This document shows, piece after piece, positions 10,499 to 16,020 of a stretch of 64,000 nucleotides of DNA (the first letter of the stretch is position 1; every line of letters begins with the position of its first letter). The notes under the pieces were generated by a model. That model saw nothing but the letters and a program-made list of their open reading frames with translations, was not told the DNA's origin and searched no databases. The stretch lies in assembly GCF_019297835.1 (NCBI RefSeq), contig NZ_CP079203.1, forward strand, positions 1,089,001 to 1,153,000, given 5' to 3'. Source of the DNA: Sphingomonas sanguinis. Lineage in GTDB: Bacteria; Pseudomonadota; Alphaproteobacteria; Sphingomonadales; Sphingomonadaceae. The position numbers and the translations under genes are program-made.

Positions 10499-10500
10499 CA

Positions 10501-10630
10501 ATCCTCCCCGGCACGGGGAGGGGGACCGCCGCGAAGCGGTGGTGGAGGGGGCGTGCGGCAAAGGTCATCCCTTGCTGAAGCCCCCCTCCGTCAGGCCTTC
10601 GGCCTGCCACCTCCCCGTGCCGGGGAGGAT
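10501..10630. repeat. Intergenic inverted-repeat element, family A, copy 1
   Basis: A 130-nt element bounded by perfect 21-nt inverted repeats (10501-10521 and 10610-10630). Each arm is itself a hairpin, CCTCCCCG and CGGGGAGG around a 3-nt loop. Two inner hairpins follow (ACCGC/GCGGT and AGGCC/GGCCT). It occupies almost the whole gap between ispZ and the sod terminator. A related copy in the opposite orientation is at 44887-45018. It resembles a pair of REP-type units. Confidence 0.85.
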
Positions 10631-10632
10631 CG

Positions 10633-10665
10633 AAAAAAGGACGGCCCCAGTGGAGCCGCCCTTTC
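10633..10665 (-). terminator. Rho-independent terminator of the superoxide dismutase gene
   Basis: On the minus strand a GC-rich stem (GGGCGGCTCC pairing imperfectly with GGGGCCGTCC around ACT) is followed by six T residues. It lies 25 nt beyond the stop of the superoxide dismutase gene. Confidence 0.8.
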
Positions 10666-11367: not shown

Positions 11368-12414
11368 TTACGCAACCGTTCCGATCAGATCATGGCGACG
11401 AAGCGCATGACGAAGCTGGTCGTATGAAAGCCCTAGCGCCTCGGCCGTGGTCCGCTGGTTGAAGCGGTTGTCAGCCAGCGCCTTGGTCAGCAGCTCGCGC
11501 TCGAAGCGCGCGACGCGCGATTTGAAGTCGGACGGGCCTACATCGCAGGCCGCCACCTCGTCGCCGTCGCTCACCGGCTCGGCGGAGGCCGGCGCACTCC
11601 CCTGCTCGTTCCGCGCGGCGGCGGGCGACTGACCCTGCGGGCGATAGGGCGAGCGGAACGGGTCGATCTCGATCGCATCGACCGGCCCCTCGCGATCCCA
11701 GCGATAGACGGCACGCTCGACGACGTTGCGCAGTTCGCGGACATTGCCGGGCCAGCGATGCTCCATCAGCGCATCGGTCGCCGCCGCCCCGAAACCGGGC
11801 CACTCGTTCCAGCCGATCTCGGCGGCCATGCGCCGCCCGAAATGATTGGCCAGCACCATGATATCGCTCTTGCGCGCGCGAAGCGGCGGCAGTGTGACCA
11901 CCTCGAAGCACAGTCGGTCGAGCAGATCGGCGCGAAACTGATGCGCGGCGACCTTGTCGGGCAGATGCTCGTTGGTCGCCGCCACGATACGCACATCGAC
12001 CCGCAGGGGCCGTGACGATCCGATCCGCGTGACCTCGCCATATTCGACCGCGCGCAGCAGCCGGTCCTGCGCCGCCATCGATAGCGTGCCCAGTTCGTCG
12101 AGAAATAGCGTACCGCCGCTCGCCTCCTCGAACCGCCCCGCCCGCGCCTTGGTCGCCCCGGTAAAGGCGCCAGCCTCATGCCCGAAGAGTTCGGCCTCGA
12201 TCAGCGTCTCCGGCAACGCGGCGCAGTTCATGATGACCAAAGGCTGGTCCCAGCGTCCGCTCAGGCGATGGAGGCGTTCGGCGACCAGCTCCTTGCCGGT
12301 CCCGCGTTCGCCGATGACCAGCACGGGACGGTCGAGCGCGGCGGCGCGACTGGCCCGTTCCAGCGCATCCAGAAAGGCCCCCGACTGGCCAATGACCTGA
12401 CTCGTTCGCTCCAT
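11368..12414 (-). CDS. pspF: Sigma-54-dependent phage shock activator PspF
   Basis: A 348-residue AAA+ activator lacking a receiver or sensor domain, as in PspF. It has Walker A GERGTGKE (about residue 35), the sigma-54 contact loop GAFTGA, Walker B GGTLFLDELG, and a C-terminal Fis-like helix-turn-helix (NQRTTAEALGLSYDQLRHAL). The ATG at 12414 starts at MERTSQVIGQS; longer starts would run toward the divergent promoter. It is divergent from the psp operon and should activate the sigma-54 promoter at 12515-12530 when released from PspA. Confidence 0.93.
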   Translation of the reverse strand: MERTSQVIGQSGAFLDALERASRAAALDRPVLVIGERGTGKELVAERLHRLSGRWDQPLVIMNCAALPETLIEAELFGHEAGAFTGATKARAGRFEEASGGTLFLDELGTLSMAAQDRLLRAVEYGEVTRIGSSRPLRVDVRIVAATNEHLPDKVAAHQFRADLLDRLCFEVVTLPPLRARKSDIMVLANHFGRRMAAEIGWNEWPGFGAAATDALMEHRWPGNVRELRNVVERAVYRWDREGPVDAIEIDPFRSPYRPQGQSPAAARNEQGSAPASAEPVSDGDEVAACDVGPSDFKSRVARFERELLTKALADNRFNQRTTAEALGLSYDQLRHALRRHDLIGTVA

Positions 12415-12514: not shown

Positions 12515-12530
12515 TGGCACGGCTCCTGCA
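12515..12530 (+). promoter_or_regulatory. Sigma-54 (-24/-12) promoter of the psp operon
   Basis: TGGCACG followed by 4 nt and CTGCA matches the sigma-54 consensus TGGCACG-N4-TTGCA at all but one base. It lies between pspF and the first gene of the psp operon and predicts transcription from about 12540. Confidence 0.82.
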
Positions 12531-12590
12531 ATGCTTCTGGCATCCCGCCGACGAGCGGACCGAAACAAAAGAATTCAGGGAGTTTCCACC

Positions 12591-12737
12591 ATGTTCGCCA
12601 CCGACATCACCCGCCAGATCGCCGCCATCGCCTGCACCGTCGTCATGAGCGCCACCTGCCTGCTGGGCGCCCTCGCCCCCGCGCATGTCGCTCCTGCACA
12701 GACTTCGGTTGCGGCGATCGAGGCACCGACCGCATAA
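12591..12737 (+). CDS. Small hydrophobic peptide at head of psp operon (48 aa)
   Basis: Begins MFATDITRQIAAIACTVVMS and has one hydrophobic segment (about residues 8-30) followed by an Ala/Pro-rich tail, so it could be a membrane peptide or a short secreted one. GGGAG lies 9 nt before the ATG at 12591. It is the first frame after the sigma-54 promoter and 31 nt before pspA. No family is recognised. Confidence 0.65.
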   Translation: MFATDITRQIAAIACTVVMSATCLLGALAPAHVAPAQTSVAAIEAPTA

Positions 12738-12768
12738 TCCCCGAATAGCCGCCATCAAGGAGTATCCG

Positions 12769-13437
12769 ATGGGCATTTTCTCCCGCACCCGCGACATCGT
12801 CGCCGCCAACTTCGCCGACCTGCTGGACAAGGCGGAAGACCCCGCGAAGATGATCCGCATGATCATCCTCGAAATGGAGGAAACGCTTGTCGAGGTGCGC
12901 GCCTCTGCCGCCCGCACGATCGCCGATCAGAAGGAAATCCGCCGCCACATCATGAAGCTGGACCAGCTTCAGGACAGCTGGACCGAAAAGGCCGAGCTGG
13001 CGCTGTCGAAGGACCGCGAAGACCTCGCCAAGGCCGCGCTGATCGAGCGTCAGAAGGCCGCCGACATGGCCGACCAGCTGAAGGCCGAAGTCCAGGTGCT
13101 CGACGATGCGCTGCGCGCGTCGGAAGAGGACATCGCCAAGCTGCAGAACAAGCTGCGCGAGGCGCGGACCAAGCAGAATGCGGTCCAGACCCGTCTGGAA
13201 AGCGCCAACAACCGCTATCGCCTCCGCGAGATGTGGAACGGCCCGAAGACGCACGACGCGTTCAGCCGCTTCGACGTGCTGGAGCGCAAGGTGGACGAGG
13301 CCGAGGGTCGCGCGGAAGCGCTGGGCTTGGGCGCGAACCCCAAGACGCTCGAGGACGAGATCGCCGAACTGCGCGCCTCGGACCGGGTCGACGCCGAACT
13401 CGCTGCGCTCAAGGCGCGCCTGAACAAGGGGGAGTGA
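12769..13437 (+). CDS. pspA: Phage shock protein A
   Basis: A 222-residue PspA/IM30 protein, almost entirely coiled coil, that binds stressed inner membrane and inhibits PspF. It opens MGIFSRTRDIVAANFADLLDKAEDPAKMIRMII in three conserved blocks: the amphipathic N-terminal helix, the ANFADLL segment and the EDP-K-I motif. The ATG at 12769 has AAGGAG upstream. It is followed immediately by pspB. Confidence 0.96.
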   Translation: MGIFSRTRDIVAANFADLLDKAEDPAKMIRMIILEMEETLVEVRASAARTIADQKEIRRHIMKLDQLQDSWTEKAELALSKDREDLAKAALIERQKAADMADQLKAEVQVLDDALRASEEDIAKLQNKLREARTKQNAVQTRLESANNRYRLREMWNGPKTHDAFSRFDVLERKVDEAEGRAEALGLGANPKTLEDEIAELRASDRVDAELAALKARLNKGE

Positions 13438-13438
13438 G

Positions 13439-13729
13439 ATGGAGGATATCGTCACTCCCGGCATCGCGATCACCACGATCTTCATCGCGCTGCCCTGGCT
13501 GATCCTGCACTATATGACGAAGTGGAAGCAGGCGCCCAAGATCACCCATGAGGACGAGCAGCTGCTCGACGAGTTGCACCTCCTCGCGCGTCGCCTGGAG
13601 GACCGGGTCAACACCGTCGAACGGATCGTCGCCGCCGACAATCCCAACTTCAAACCCGGTCTTCAGTCCGATTGGCGCCCCGAACCGCGCCTGGGCCAGA
13701 CCGACTATAGCCTCGATCGGAGGAATTGA
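13439..13729 (+). CDS. pspB: Phage shock protein B
   Basis: A 96-residue protein with one N-terminal membrane helix ending in WLILHYMTKWK and then a soluble coiled coil (LHLLARRLEDRVNTVERIV). It is longer than the E. coli protein (about 75 residues) because of a C-terminal extension. It starts one nt after the pspA stop. With PspC it should relay envelope stress to PspA. Its coiled-coil motif recurs in the four small genes downstream. Confidence 0.92.
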   Translation: MEDIVTPGIAITTIFIALPWLILHYMTKWKQAPKITHEDEQLLDELHLLARRLEDRVNTVERIVAADNPNFKPGLQSDWRPEPRLGQTDYSLDRRN

Positions 13730-13730
13730 G

Positions 13731-14114
13731 ATGACCGCCAGCCGCACCAATTTCTACCTCGACAAGCAGAATGCCAAGTTCAAGGGCGTCTGCTCCGGCA
13801 TCGCCGACTATACCGGCGTCGATGTGATGTGGGTCCGCGTCGCCGCGGTCCTGCTTACCCTGACCGGGGTCGGCATGCCCTGGGTCCCGCTCGCCTATAT
13901 GCTGATCGCCTGGATGGCGACCGCCAAGCCGATCGGCCTCTACCAGTCGGACGAGGATGCCAAGTTCTGGCAGGGCGTGCGCAGCAATCCGCGCCGCTCG
14001 ACCGCCGAGGTCCGCTCGAAGTTCCGCGATCTCGACCGTCGCCTGGCCGATATCGAACTGCATTATACCAGCCGCAACCGTCAGCTCGCCGACGAGATCG
14101 ACAGCCTGCGCTGA
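13731..14114 (+). CDS. pspC: Phage shock protein C
   Basis: A 127-residue PspC-domain protein: KFKGVCSGIADYTGVD near residue 16, a hydrophobic stretch at about 35-62 (VRVAAVLLTLTG and LAYMLIAWM), then a coiled C-terminus ending RQLADEIDSLR. That ending resembles EIDALRDR and DEIDALR in the small proteins downstream. CGGAGG precedes the ATG at 13731. Confidence 0.93.
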   Translation: MTASRTNFYLDKQNAKFKGVCSGIADYTGVDVMWVRVAAVLLTLTGVGMPWVPLAYMLIAWMATAKPIGLYQSDEDAKFWQGVRSNPRRSTAEVRSKFRDLDRRLADIELHYTSRNRQLADEIDSLR

Positions 14115-14155
14115 GACCGCGCTGACACATCAACTATCCTATGGGAGTATGGATT

Positions 14156-14452
14156 ATGGCTTGGGGAGGACCGGGTTTCGTCCTGGCGATCATCGCAATG
14201 TCGACGATCGGTTGGGTCGTCACGACCTGGATCCGTGCGAAGCACGGTTACAGCCTGGAAAATGACTGGGGCGGGATGACGCACAAGAGCGACATCGCCG
14301 ATGGCCGCAAGGTCGAACTGCTGACCGCCGAGAACCACAAGCTGGTCGGCCAGGTCTCTCGACTGGAAGAGCGGATCGCGGTGCTGGAGCGGATCGCCAC
14401 CGACCCCGCCGAGCGGACCGCGCGCGAAATCGACGCGCTGCGCGATCGCTGA
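14156..14452 (+). CDS. PspB-like small membrane coiled-coil protein 1
   Basis: 98 residues: one membrane helix (GFVLAIIAMSTIGWVVTTW), a basic turn, then a coiled coil with LEERIAVLERIATD and the end EIDALRDR. I chose the ATG at 14156 because GGGAG at 14143-14147 is well spaced for it; an ATG at 14141 would add five residues. Layout and heptad motif match PspB, but overall similarity looks too low to call it a PspB. It lies 41 nt after pspC. Confidence 0.85.
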   Translation: MAWGGPGFVLAIIAMSTIGWVVTTWIRAKHGYSLENDWGGMTHKSDIADGRKVELLTAENHKLVGQVSRLEERIAVLERIATDPAERTAREIDALRDR

Positions 14453-14464
14453 GGGAGAGGCAAG

Positions 14465-14752
14465 ATGAACAATATCGCTATCCTGATCCCCATCATGGGC
14501 ATCAGTTGCGGCCTGGTCGCCATTATCGGTGGCGTCTTTCTGAAGCCCTGGTTCGCCCTTCGCGAAAAGCAGCTGGCCACCGAAGCCTCGATGGTTGCCG
14601 AAAAAGCCGCGCAATATGCGGCACAGACCGAAAAGCTGGAACAGCGAGTCCGGGTGCTGGAGCGGATCATCACCGATCGCGGCCTGGCGCTCAGCGACGA
14701 GATCGATGCCCTGCGCATCGGCGGCGAAGCGCCCGCCCGCATCGAACACTGA
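14465..14752 (+). CDS. PspB-like small membrane coiled-coil protein 2
   Basis: 95 residues: N-terminal membrane helix (ILIPIMGISCGLVAIIGGVF), basic KPWFALREK turn, then a helix with LEQRVRVLERIITD and DEIDALR. GAGGGAGAGG precedes the ATG. It has the same architecture as the preceding gene and follows it by 12 nt. Likely an inner-membrane partner within the Psp response (inference). Confidence 0.85.
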   Translation: MNNIAILIPIMGISCGLVAIIGGVFLKPWFALREKQLATEASMVAEKAAQYAAQTEKLEQRVRVLERIITDRGLALSDEIDALRIGGEAPARIEH

Positions 14753-14780
14753 CATAAGATTTTAGAGGGGAGTTACCGCT

Positions 14781-15038
14781 ATGTCCGGCGGACAGTTCAT
14801 GACCGTTCTGATCGTCGCGATCGTGATGGTCGCCAGCATCTTCAAGGCCAAGCATCGCCGTTCGCCCGGCCTCGACATGGTCGAGCATCTGCGCGGAGAT
14901 GCCTCCCGCGACACCCAGGCACTGCGGGCCGAGGTGCAGCAGCTCAAGGAGCGTATCCAGGTTCTGGAGCGCGTCATCACCGACGAACGCAAGAGCATCG
15001 ATCTCGATCGCGAGATCGAGCGGCTGCGCGACCGTTAA
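14781..15038 (+). CDS. PspB-like small membrane coiled-coil protein 3
   Basis: 85 residues: membrane helix (FMTVLIVAIVMVASIF), KAKHRR turn, and a coiled coil with LKERIQVLERVITDER and EIERLRDR. GAGGGGAG lies before the ATG. It is the third member of the tandem set and shares the LxERI-x-VLER-[IV]-ITD signature with its neighbours. Confidence 0.85.
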   Translation: MSGGQFMTVLIVAIVMVASIFKAKHRRSPGLDMVEHLRGDASRDTQALRAEVQQLKERIQVLERVITDERKSIDLDREIERLRDR

Positions 15039-15071
15039 GCCAACCATTGATACGGACAGGGAGCCCGGATC

Positions 15072-15311
15072 ATGACCGACACCAATCTCTACATCGTGAT
15101 CGCGACCGCCGGCTTGGCGGGTCTGGCGATGATCGTCACCGCCGGTCTGGCAGGCTGGCGCGGCTGGTTGCAGCTGAAGAACCGCGAGTTCGAGCGTAGC
15201 CACGACAATCCCTACCCGCCCGCCGCCTCAGCTGCGTCGCGGATCGAGATGGCCGACCTGAAGGAGCGCATCCGCAAGCTCGAAGCCATCGCCGCCGGCG
15301 TCGATCTCTGA
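15072..15311 (+). CDS. PspB-like small membrane coiled-coil protein 4
   Basis: 79 residues: membrane segment (VIATAGLAGLAMIVTAGLAG), a linker LQLKNREFERSHDNPYP and a short final helix with LKERIRKLEAIAAG. It is the most diverged and shortest of the set and ends the array, 33 nt after the preceding gene. Function unknown; position suggests it belongs to the psp transcript. Confidence 0.8.
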   Translation: MTDTNLYIVIATAGLAGLAMIVTAGLAGWRGWLQLKNREFERSHDNPYPPAASAASRIEMADLKERIRKLEAIAAGVDL

Positions 15312-15410: not shown

Positions 15411-15812
15411 ATGTCCGACCTTGCCGAAATCCGCGACGAATATGAATTTCTTGACGCTGACGATCGCTATCGCCTGCTGATCGATCTGGGTCGTGCGTTG
15501 GAGCCAATGCCCGAGGCGCTGAAGACCGACGCGACGCTGGTGCGGGGGTGTTCGGCCTCGGTCTGGGTCTATCCGACCAAAAGCGACGGCGCGGGGCTGC
15601 ACTTTCTGGCGGATTCGAACGCGGCGATCACCAAGGGGATCATCGCGCTCGTGCTCAAGACGGTGCAGGACAAGACGCCTGCCGAGATACTCGCGACGGA
15701 TATCGAGGGCGAACTGGCGCCGTTCGATTTGCGGAACCAGTTGAGTTCCAACCGGACGCAGGGGATTCCCAACATGATCGCGCTGATCCGGGAGACGGCT
15801 GGGCGGTATTGA
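15411..15812 (+). CDS. sufE: SufE-like cysteine desulfuration protein
   Basis: 133 residues. SufE accepts sulfur from a cysteine desulfurase; the acceptor is C47 in VRGCSASVW. The rest (LLIDLGRALEPMP, LSSNRTQGIPNMI) fits the family. The ATG at 15411 matches the usual N-terminus, although its GGAG is about 15 nt away; an upstream in-frame ATG is possible. Two cysteine desulfurase genes lie at 33-35 kb. A palindromic repeat follows. Confidence 0.92.
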   Translation: MSDLAEIRDEYEFLDADDRYRLLIDLGRALEPMPEALKTDATLVRGCSASVWVYPTKSDGAGLHFLADSNAAITKGIIALVLKTVQDKTPAEILATDIEGELAPFDLRNQLSSNRTQGIPNMIALIRETAGRY

Positions 15813-15824
15813 TTGGGCGGCGGC

Positions 15825-16020
15825 GGGCTCGGTGAGACACCTGCCCTCCCCCATCCCCTCCCGCCTGCGGGAGGGGCGTGTTACGTGGCAGTCCTGAGCC
15901 CGCTCCACAAGCGCCTGTCCCGGTTTTAACGATCGATAAAGGAACCTGCCCGCGCCTCTGAGCGCTCCCCTCCCGCAAGCGGGAGGGGATGGGGGAGGGC
16001 AACGGTGTCTCACCGAGCCC
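15825..16020. repeat. Intergenic inverted-repeat element, family B, copy 1
   Basis: A 196-nt element whose outer arms (GGGCTCGGTGAGACAC at 15825-15840 and its exact complement at 16005-16020) continue inward into complementary GCCCTCCCCCATCCCC tracts and CTCCCGC/GCGGGAG hairpins. The central stretch of about 90 nt is unrelated to the arms and holds no gene. A second copy is at 38998-39146 and a fragment at 42323-42354. Confidence 0.85.

Follow-up and report, generated by a model that had tools for sequence, protein, structure and literature searches.

Small membrane proteins with PspC-like tails form an ordered gene array behind pspC in Sphingomonadaceae

The phage-shock protein (psp) operon of Sphingomonas sanguinis was analysed in a stretch of 64,000 nucleotides (contig NZ_CP079203.1, positions 1,089,001 to 1,153,000; referred to as the window). 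Following pspA, pspB and pspC, four small genes are found, designated O1 to O4. Genes of this array are ancient, ordered paralogs under purifying selection, and their tailed members, among them O1 to O3, resemble PspB and the PspC C-terminal tail equally. The analysis shows by direct computation the genes and their order, their homology, the selection acting on them, the promoter site, their distribution and their joint absence with pspA. On balance, we consider it probable that the tailed proteins are detached, membrane-anchored copies of the PspC tail, which would add docking sites for PspA and be encoded by the final genes of an operon under putative PspF/sigma-54 control.

Array proteins and their relation to PspB and PspC

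An earlier note, made from the letters of the window, had reported pspABC followed by four small genes, each coding for an N-terminal membrane helix and a coiled coil. Both points were borne out, the genes being located behind pspC at 14156-15311:

14156..14452, + strand: O1, class G, 98 amino acids; membrane helix, KHGY motif, coiled coil, PspC-like tail
14465..14752, + strand: O2, class Q, 95 amino acids; membrane helix, AEKAAQYA motif, coiled coil, PspC-like tail
14781..15038, + strand: O3, class c, 85 amino acids; membrane helix, coiled coil, PspC-like tail
15072..15311, + strand: O4, class Z, 79 amino acids; membrane helix, short coil, tail-less; closes the array

The signature LxERI-x-VLER-I-ITD, which the note had ascribed to all four proteins, was found in O1 (LEERIAVLERIATD), O2 (LEQRVRVLERIITD) and O3 (LKERIQVLERVITD). 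In O4 only a part is present (LKERIRKLEAIA), and because this protein carries neither TD nor the EIxxLR tail, the description is strictly true of three. The EIDxLR end said to be common to PspC and the first two proteins was recovered at or near the C-terminus of PspC, O1 and O2, and reads EIERLR in O3. O1-O3 share a segment R-x4-E ... T(D/S) ... L-x2-EI-x2-L with PspC; counted from the invariant Arg to the final Arg, it spans 24 residues without gaps in window PspC, O1 and O2, and 26 residues in O3. The tail motif is present in nearly all PspC tails inspected. In a comparison of nine proteins, O1 matched O2 (E 1.6e-7) and O3 (E 2.1e-6), mutual O1-O3 matches ranged from E 1.2e-7 to 4.3e-6, and O4 was linked mainly via O2 (E 3e-4). 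A 12-row profile including O1-O4, run on the whole 4.37-Mb source genome, retrieved O1-O4 and, weakly, the PspC tail (E 9e-4), with no other match at E 1e-3.

For the wider comparison, 143 psp loci from the family and its neighbourhood, found via PspB, were used: 42 loci, 100 loci from as many of the 109 family genomes (out of 119) with PspB above cut-off, and the window. Nine of these 109 genomes were left out, several because of fragmentation. PspB was parsed in 140 loci; L012, L024 and L125, in which pspB was uncalled, were dropped, and each of these holds 4-8 matches to array profiles, PspC included. The row for L146 (no psp gene called) was also dropped, an alignment with one apparently out-of-frame row (L016) was set aside, and removal of three extra full-length PspC proteins reduced 575 array proteins to 572. 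L093 is irregular and was kept in the counts.

A hydrophobic stretch lies within the first 45 residues in 547/575 array proteins, and charge bias favours a cytoplasmic C-terminus in 496 of the 572, the opposite orientation in 21. O1-O4 are predicted to cross the inner membrane once, their N-terminus facing outwards and their coiled coil lying in the cytoplasm. The AlphaFold model of O2 is a single helix (residues 3-85) of low confidence, with a mean predicted local distance difference test score of 67 and a predicted template modelling score of 0.26. Within the R-x4-E core, Arg is kept in 570/572 and Glu in 569/572 proteins, counts that are partly circular because the proteins were picked by profile. 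An expression for this core matched 558/572 array proteins, 19/572 shuffles, 44/936 other proteins and 110/114 PspA. In parallel coiled coils, g-e' ion pairs are formed at a five-residue spacing; the core Arg and Glu show this spacing and may form such a pair.

Profiles were compared using deep non-redundant alignments of 107 PspC, 123 PspB, 150 of the 437 tailed and 109 tail-less array proteins. Tailed members matched PspB with 94% probability (E 1.4e-7, 29 columns), PspC with 93% (E 3.4e-7, 40 columns) and tail-less members with 94% (E 1.5e-7); O1 by itself matched PspC with 89.4% (E 2.1e-6). PspB compared directly with PspC gave only 13.5%, so that the two are bridged by the array proteins, which match both. 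As controls, PspA reached 2.2% for the tailed profile and 0.5-6.3% for the other three, SufE 0.1% and reversed profiles 0.2-8.6%. The likeness to PspB on which the earlier note relied is therefore detectable by profile comparison and the kinship stands, but the family is not one of PspB alone, as the PspC tail is equally close.

Following a search of the 2241 called proteins of the 143 loci at E 0.01, the O1-O3 profiles matched 791-869 proteins and the O4 profile 594. All matches were array proteins, PspB or PspC, save 18 per profile (15 for O4), all from the three loci whose pspB the gene-calling script had missed. None of 140 PspA and no shuffled sequences were matched, and at most five reversed ones. 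With the curated PspB models, O3 scored 21.3 bits for PF06667 (cut-off 25.6) and 21.5 bits for TIGR02976 (cut-off 51.7; E 2.1e-4), most of the protein aligning with PspB at these sub-threshold scores; O2 scored 15.3 and 13.7 bits, O1 13.3 bits (TIGR02976 only), and O4 gave no match. The PspC domain PF04024 was matched by none of O1-O4 at E 10. Stand-alone relatives of the array genes are matched below cut-off by the curated PspB and PspC models, for PspB up to 40.7 bits (E 2.2e-10). Among solved structures, alignment A2 gave nine weak matches (best E 0.031), considered unconvincing.

Order, age and distribution of the array

The last gene is tail-less in 125 of the 139 arrays, and 423/433 other genes are tailed. 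Position is conserved from the end: last genes have another last gene as their best match in 132/139 cases, and penultimate genes match another penultimate gene best in 124/133. For all 572 proteins the best match lies outside their own array. In a tree built from 158 sequences over 79 columns, the last class (Z) formed a clade with 20/20 sampled members (support 0.98). A second clade held 16 class-Q members and 11 others (0.95) and a looser one 39 class-G members and four others (0.73); class c gave no clean clade (29/51, 0.52). The window pattern G-Q-c-Z is the commonest, occurring in 23/139 arrays.

Median ratios of nonsynonymous to synonymous substitution rates (dN/dS) among ten close Sphingomonas loci (nine for PspA and O3) were 0.24, 0.28, 0.21 and 0.08 for O1 to O4, O4 being lowest (0.077), compared with 0.24 for PspB, 0.12 for PspC and 0.02 for PspA. 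The earlier note's tandem duplication holds as growth by duplication; it is ancient, with classes largely in order across the family. Recent tandem duplication was rejected, as 572/572 best matches come from other genomes, also after exclusion of loci whose PspC is at least 75% identical.

Parsed loci carry 1-8 array genes, most often 4, in 139/140 cases (none in L085), and sufE follows the array in 116/140. No array was found in 10 parsed of 11 psp loci from other Alphaproteobacteria, where pspF and pspB-pspC are present and pspA was called in 9. Other families of the order contributed 16 psp loci, of which L156 and L162 hold a tail-less PspC and one O gene, L163 holds a second PspB and 13 hold neither; pspC is directly followed by sufE in L155, L158, L161 and L166. 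On the simplest reading, the array expanded in the space between pspC and sufE in the lineage leading to the Sphingomonadaceae. Extra tail-less PspC genes (55-84 amino acids) were also seen in the psp operons of L156 (3199-3661), L162 (3136-3709), L071, L078 and L086. In genome G523, from the same phylum but another class, two adjacent PspB genes far above cut-off lie at C1:1117368-1117807.

Stand-alone O genes were found in none of 140 genomes outside the genus in the class sample and in at least ten genomes outside the family in the phylum sample of 249, both counts being lower bounds because limited candidates were scored per genome. Kordiimonas- and Iodidimonas-like genomes carry such genes as well, and one family genome (G079) has an extra O match away from its array. 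All ten outside genomes have pspA and pspB. Tandem pairs of stand-alone genes outside psp operons occur at L183 3968-4517, L184 3727-4209 and L171 2213-2698. At L173 2534-2767, L174 3800-4033 and L186 3871-4089, stand-alone relatives adjoin genes of ~1050-1080 codons that look like resistance-nodulation-division (RND) efflux pump genes, in L173 and L174 by sequence start and in L186 by size only.

Ten family genomes lack PspB over cut-off, and seven of these have neither a pspA match nor O genes. Without a pspA match are eight family genomes, O genes being missing in seven. In G065, the array stands behind pspC at a contig start, with a PspA match of 42 bits on another contig. In G040, pspA is followed by an 88-residue PspC matching TIGR02978 positions 3-67 of 121 and then by two O genes, one of which matches positions 52-121; PspB was not found. 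It looks as if PspC had been split here. A 199-residue 'PspC' in L039 was rejected as a PspC-array fusion, since it includes a stretch of X residues that stem from Ns in the database entry. Two-part proteins P0019-P0024, mostly on small contigs, may be read-throughs and were not used. In the protein database, 7,386 of 8,000 scored candidates matched the array profile; among the 120 matches listed, those named by their source are mostly 'hypothetical protein'.

Organization of the operon

Gene order in the window is as follows, with O1-O4 inserted between pspC and sufE:

11368..12414, - strand: pspF, divergent sigma-54 activator (TIGR02974, 483.5 bits, cut-off 443.55)
12515..12530, + strand: sigma-54-type -24/-12 promoter site (TGGCAC-N5-CTGCA, 1 mismatch)
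12591..12737, + strand: leader open reading frame (ORF), 48 amino acids, one hydrophobic segment, first operon gene (gene call)
12769..13437, + strand: pspA (TIGR02977, 274.8 bits, cut-off 242.95)
13439..13729, + strand: pspB (TIGR02976, 84.2 bits, cut-off 51.7)
13731..14114, + strand: pspC (TIGR02978, 116.4 bits, cut-off 104)
15411..15812, + strand: sufE, downstream boundary of the array (PF02657, 120.7 bits)

PspA, PspB, PspC and PspF all score above TIGR equivalog cut-offs, narrower PRK models being matched below theirs. Window PspB is 98-99% identical to PspB of Candidatus Sphingomonas excrementigallinarum and Sphingomonas yabuuchiae. Membership of O1-O4 in a PspF/sigma-54 operon, proposed in the earlier note, is supported by arrangement: pspF is divergent, a -24/-12 site is present, pspABC lie upstream on the same strand and gaps are short. 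From pspB through the array, 662/714 gaps measure 50 nucleotides or less, and 197 are 1- or 4-nucleotide overlaps. A -24/-12 site was found in 115/138 loci against 2.4 expected from mononucleotide shuffles; the window site taken alone is not above chance. The note had begun its region at 12515, which coincides with this site, and passed over the leader ORF before pspA. An Rfam scan at gathering scores gave no match, and terminator-like sites numbered 4 against 1.8 expected, all within O2.

A leader-like ORF was counted, without a shuffle control, in 95/109 loci with a strict promoter. In the cases inspected it measured 43-68 codons and encoded one hydrophobic stretch; the window ORF had no Pfam or NCBIfam match. 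In Zymomonas mobilis, ZMO1062, adjoining pspA (ZMO1063), is named (putative) pspD and tabled with pspA for temperature-dependent expression (PMC8237431), and it is up-regulated in xylose media (PMC8645129). To judge from locus order, the leader ORF is perhaps this gene. Around the locus, G+C-rich stretches resembling inverted repeats by eye lie between genes at 10500-10640 and 15840-16010, flanking the sodB-sufE block.

Possible roles and comparison with known systems

In E. coli, the fragment PspC40-119 comprises the membrane helix and the zipper tail. It binds PspA (with Cya fused C-terminally only) and, when overexpressed, induces psp without PspB; a zipper mutant of this fragment does not bind PspA, and PspC1-68 neither binds nor induces (PMC3068692). 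In the on state, PspA of Yersinia is bound by the C-terminal domain of PspC (PMC5596341). The tailed O proteins have the content of PspC40-119, which leads us to propose that they act as detached PspC tails, with PspA or PspB and PspC as candidate partners. As last members of a sigma-54/PspF-controlled psp operon, O1-O4 would be co-transcribed with it. Under membrane stress, the tailed proteins, as membrane-anchored copies of the PspC C-terminal binding domain, would pair via the coil with each other, PspB and PspC and offer extra docking sites to PspA. Membrane anchors for PspA would thereby become more numerous, PspF would be freed, and the balance between on and off that PspB and PspC establish would be adjusted, with O4 as the tail-less class closing the array.

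Several results weigh against this proposal. The tail-less class is similar only to tailed members (2.1% with PspB, 0.3% with PspC), all four proteins stay below curated PspB and PspC cut-offs, and smaller alignments gave lower, uneven probabilities (54-89% for PspC, 2.8-72% for PspB). The stand-alone O genes of 14 loci and of L171-L174 lie outside psp operons. G082 has an array and no pspA match, in an assembly that is 66% complete and with the array reaching a contig end, and G040 is one genome, the sole available member of its genus. In PMC3068692, moreover, only full-length PspC at low level supported secretin-dependent induction, the zipper was placed in the periplasm, with two topologies and a possible switch argued for, and PspB did not bind PspA; because of this last result, a PspB-like protein need not bind PspA either.

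An unlikely but serious alternative is that the extra proteins are mainly PspB-like silencers binding the PspC tail or each other, so that a bigger array would raise the threshold. It draws on the equal profile similarity to PspB and on the title of a Yersinia paper, according to which cytoplasmic PspB-PspC contacts silence the response. However, tailed members keep a PspC-type tail that PspB lacks, and G040 keeps O genes though PspB and the PspC tail are gone, leaving a silencer of that tail without a target.

Improbable, in our estimate, are co-regulated membrane proteins with an envelope task of their own, outside PspA signalling and with only the coil type in common. Stand-alone relatives, both in the same phylum outside the class and in other Alphaproteobacteria, do lie outside psp operons, three of them next to large putative RND pump genes (by sequence or size), and O4 has diverged from the signature. 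Against this stand the presence of pspA and pspB in ten of ten outside genomes (to be set against the base rate of these genes) and the absence of O genes from 7/8 family genomes without a pspA match.

About as improbable is that L-x2-EI-x2-L(R) of PspC and the tailed proteins, anchored in the membrane, imitates the beginning of helix alpha5 of PspA. The array would then consist of membrane anchors that take the place of a PspA helix within the PspA polymer, which they would nucleate or cap, and that displace PspF. Residues 194-202 of window PspA (LEDEIAELR, about 13348-13374), which we take to be the start of alpha5, resemble the motif at the tail end of PspC and of the tailed proteins. A tail matrix built from array proteins gave a median of 11.4 in 111 PspA, which are relatives and not independent cases, with 95th percentiles of 8.4 for shuffles, 7.6 for reversed sequences and 4.4 for other proteins. 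Pattern-preserving shuffles gave p = 0.007 for window PspA, 0.014-0.11 for four other family PspA and 0.02-0.59 for 24 outside the family. Mimicry of the PspA core was rejected, since only the tail part exceeds the shuffled and reversed controls, and the R-x4-E core of PspA does not. In ESCRT-III-type assemblies (endosomal sorting complex required for transport), the alpha1+2 hairpin provides the surface on which alpha5 packs (PMC12358876).

That the extra genes are redundant copies of PspB, maintained for dosage or by chance, is very improbable: a survey mentions PspB duplicates in the operon (PMC11237479), but dN/dS values of 0.08-0.28 already make redundancy unlikely, as do ordered classes, conserved position from the end and best matches that without exception lie outside the own array. 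We give the least credence of all to convergence, with coiled coils that lack homology to PspB and PspC, for although the region is short and biased, reversed-profile controls reach 8.6% and the core expression matches PspA too, the 93-94% probabilities against controls of at most 9% already make convergence unlikely, and the gapless 24-residue Arg-to-Arg segment (26 in O3), the curated-model match of a relative at E 2.2e-10 and the 0/140 PspA matched by O profiles all speak against it.

Arguments on how PspB and PspC pass the membrane-stress signal to PspA have so far relied on truncated proteins of E. coli and Yersinia. The family offers natural separations, with 1-8 stand-alone genes per operon, mostly PspC-tail-like, and with a tail-less PspC and lost PspB in G040, each of them a comparison for which part binds PspA and which silences. 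A role for one class would annotate many proteins, as the database matches are numerous and the named ones mostly 'hypothetical protein'.

The earlier note knew of no described function, and none was found; PspB duplicates, though, were already in print. According to a 2024 mSystems survey (PMC11237479), psp operons contain PspB duplicates, and PspC may carry a divergent PspB fused at its C-terminal end. These duplicates are possibly the array phenomenon, in at least one operon (AOL22920.1); the available part of that survey gives them one clause, with no family, order, PspC-tail link or distribution. A 2022 survey (PMC9239133) describes paralogs of PspC and PspA; its main text contains neither Alphaproteobacteria nor Sphingomon- as a word. 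No description of an ordered array and no expression data for its genes were found in the literature searched, subscription papers and supplements lying outside the search. What is known already, as far as the available texts go, is thus the occurrence of PspB duplicates in psp operons; an ordered family with PspC-type tails was not found in print.

With PspB (PF06667, TIGR02976), the array proteins share the N-terminal membrane helix, a cytoplasmic coil with the R-x4-E core and the operon. PspB, however, ends in a stretch with conserved prolines (P69 and P73, invariant among ten sequences), whereas O1-O3 have the EIxxLR tail of PspC type. With the C-terminal half of PspC (TIGR02978, ~52-121), they have in common the membrane helix, the R-x4-E coil, T(D/S) and the L-x2-EI-x2-L end, at identical spacing in O1 and O2; unlike PspC, the O proteins have no preceding PF04024 domain and are encoded by separate genes, several per operon. 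To our knowledge, E. coli has no such array. The proposed detached PspC tails are matched in domain content by the E. coli PspC40-119 fragment (PMC3068692), which, in contrast to a natural O protein, is an artificial truncation.

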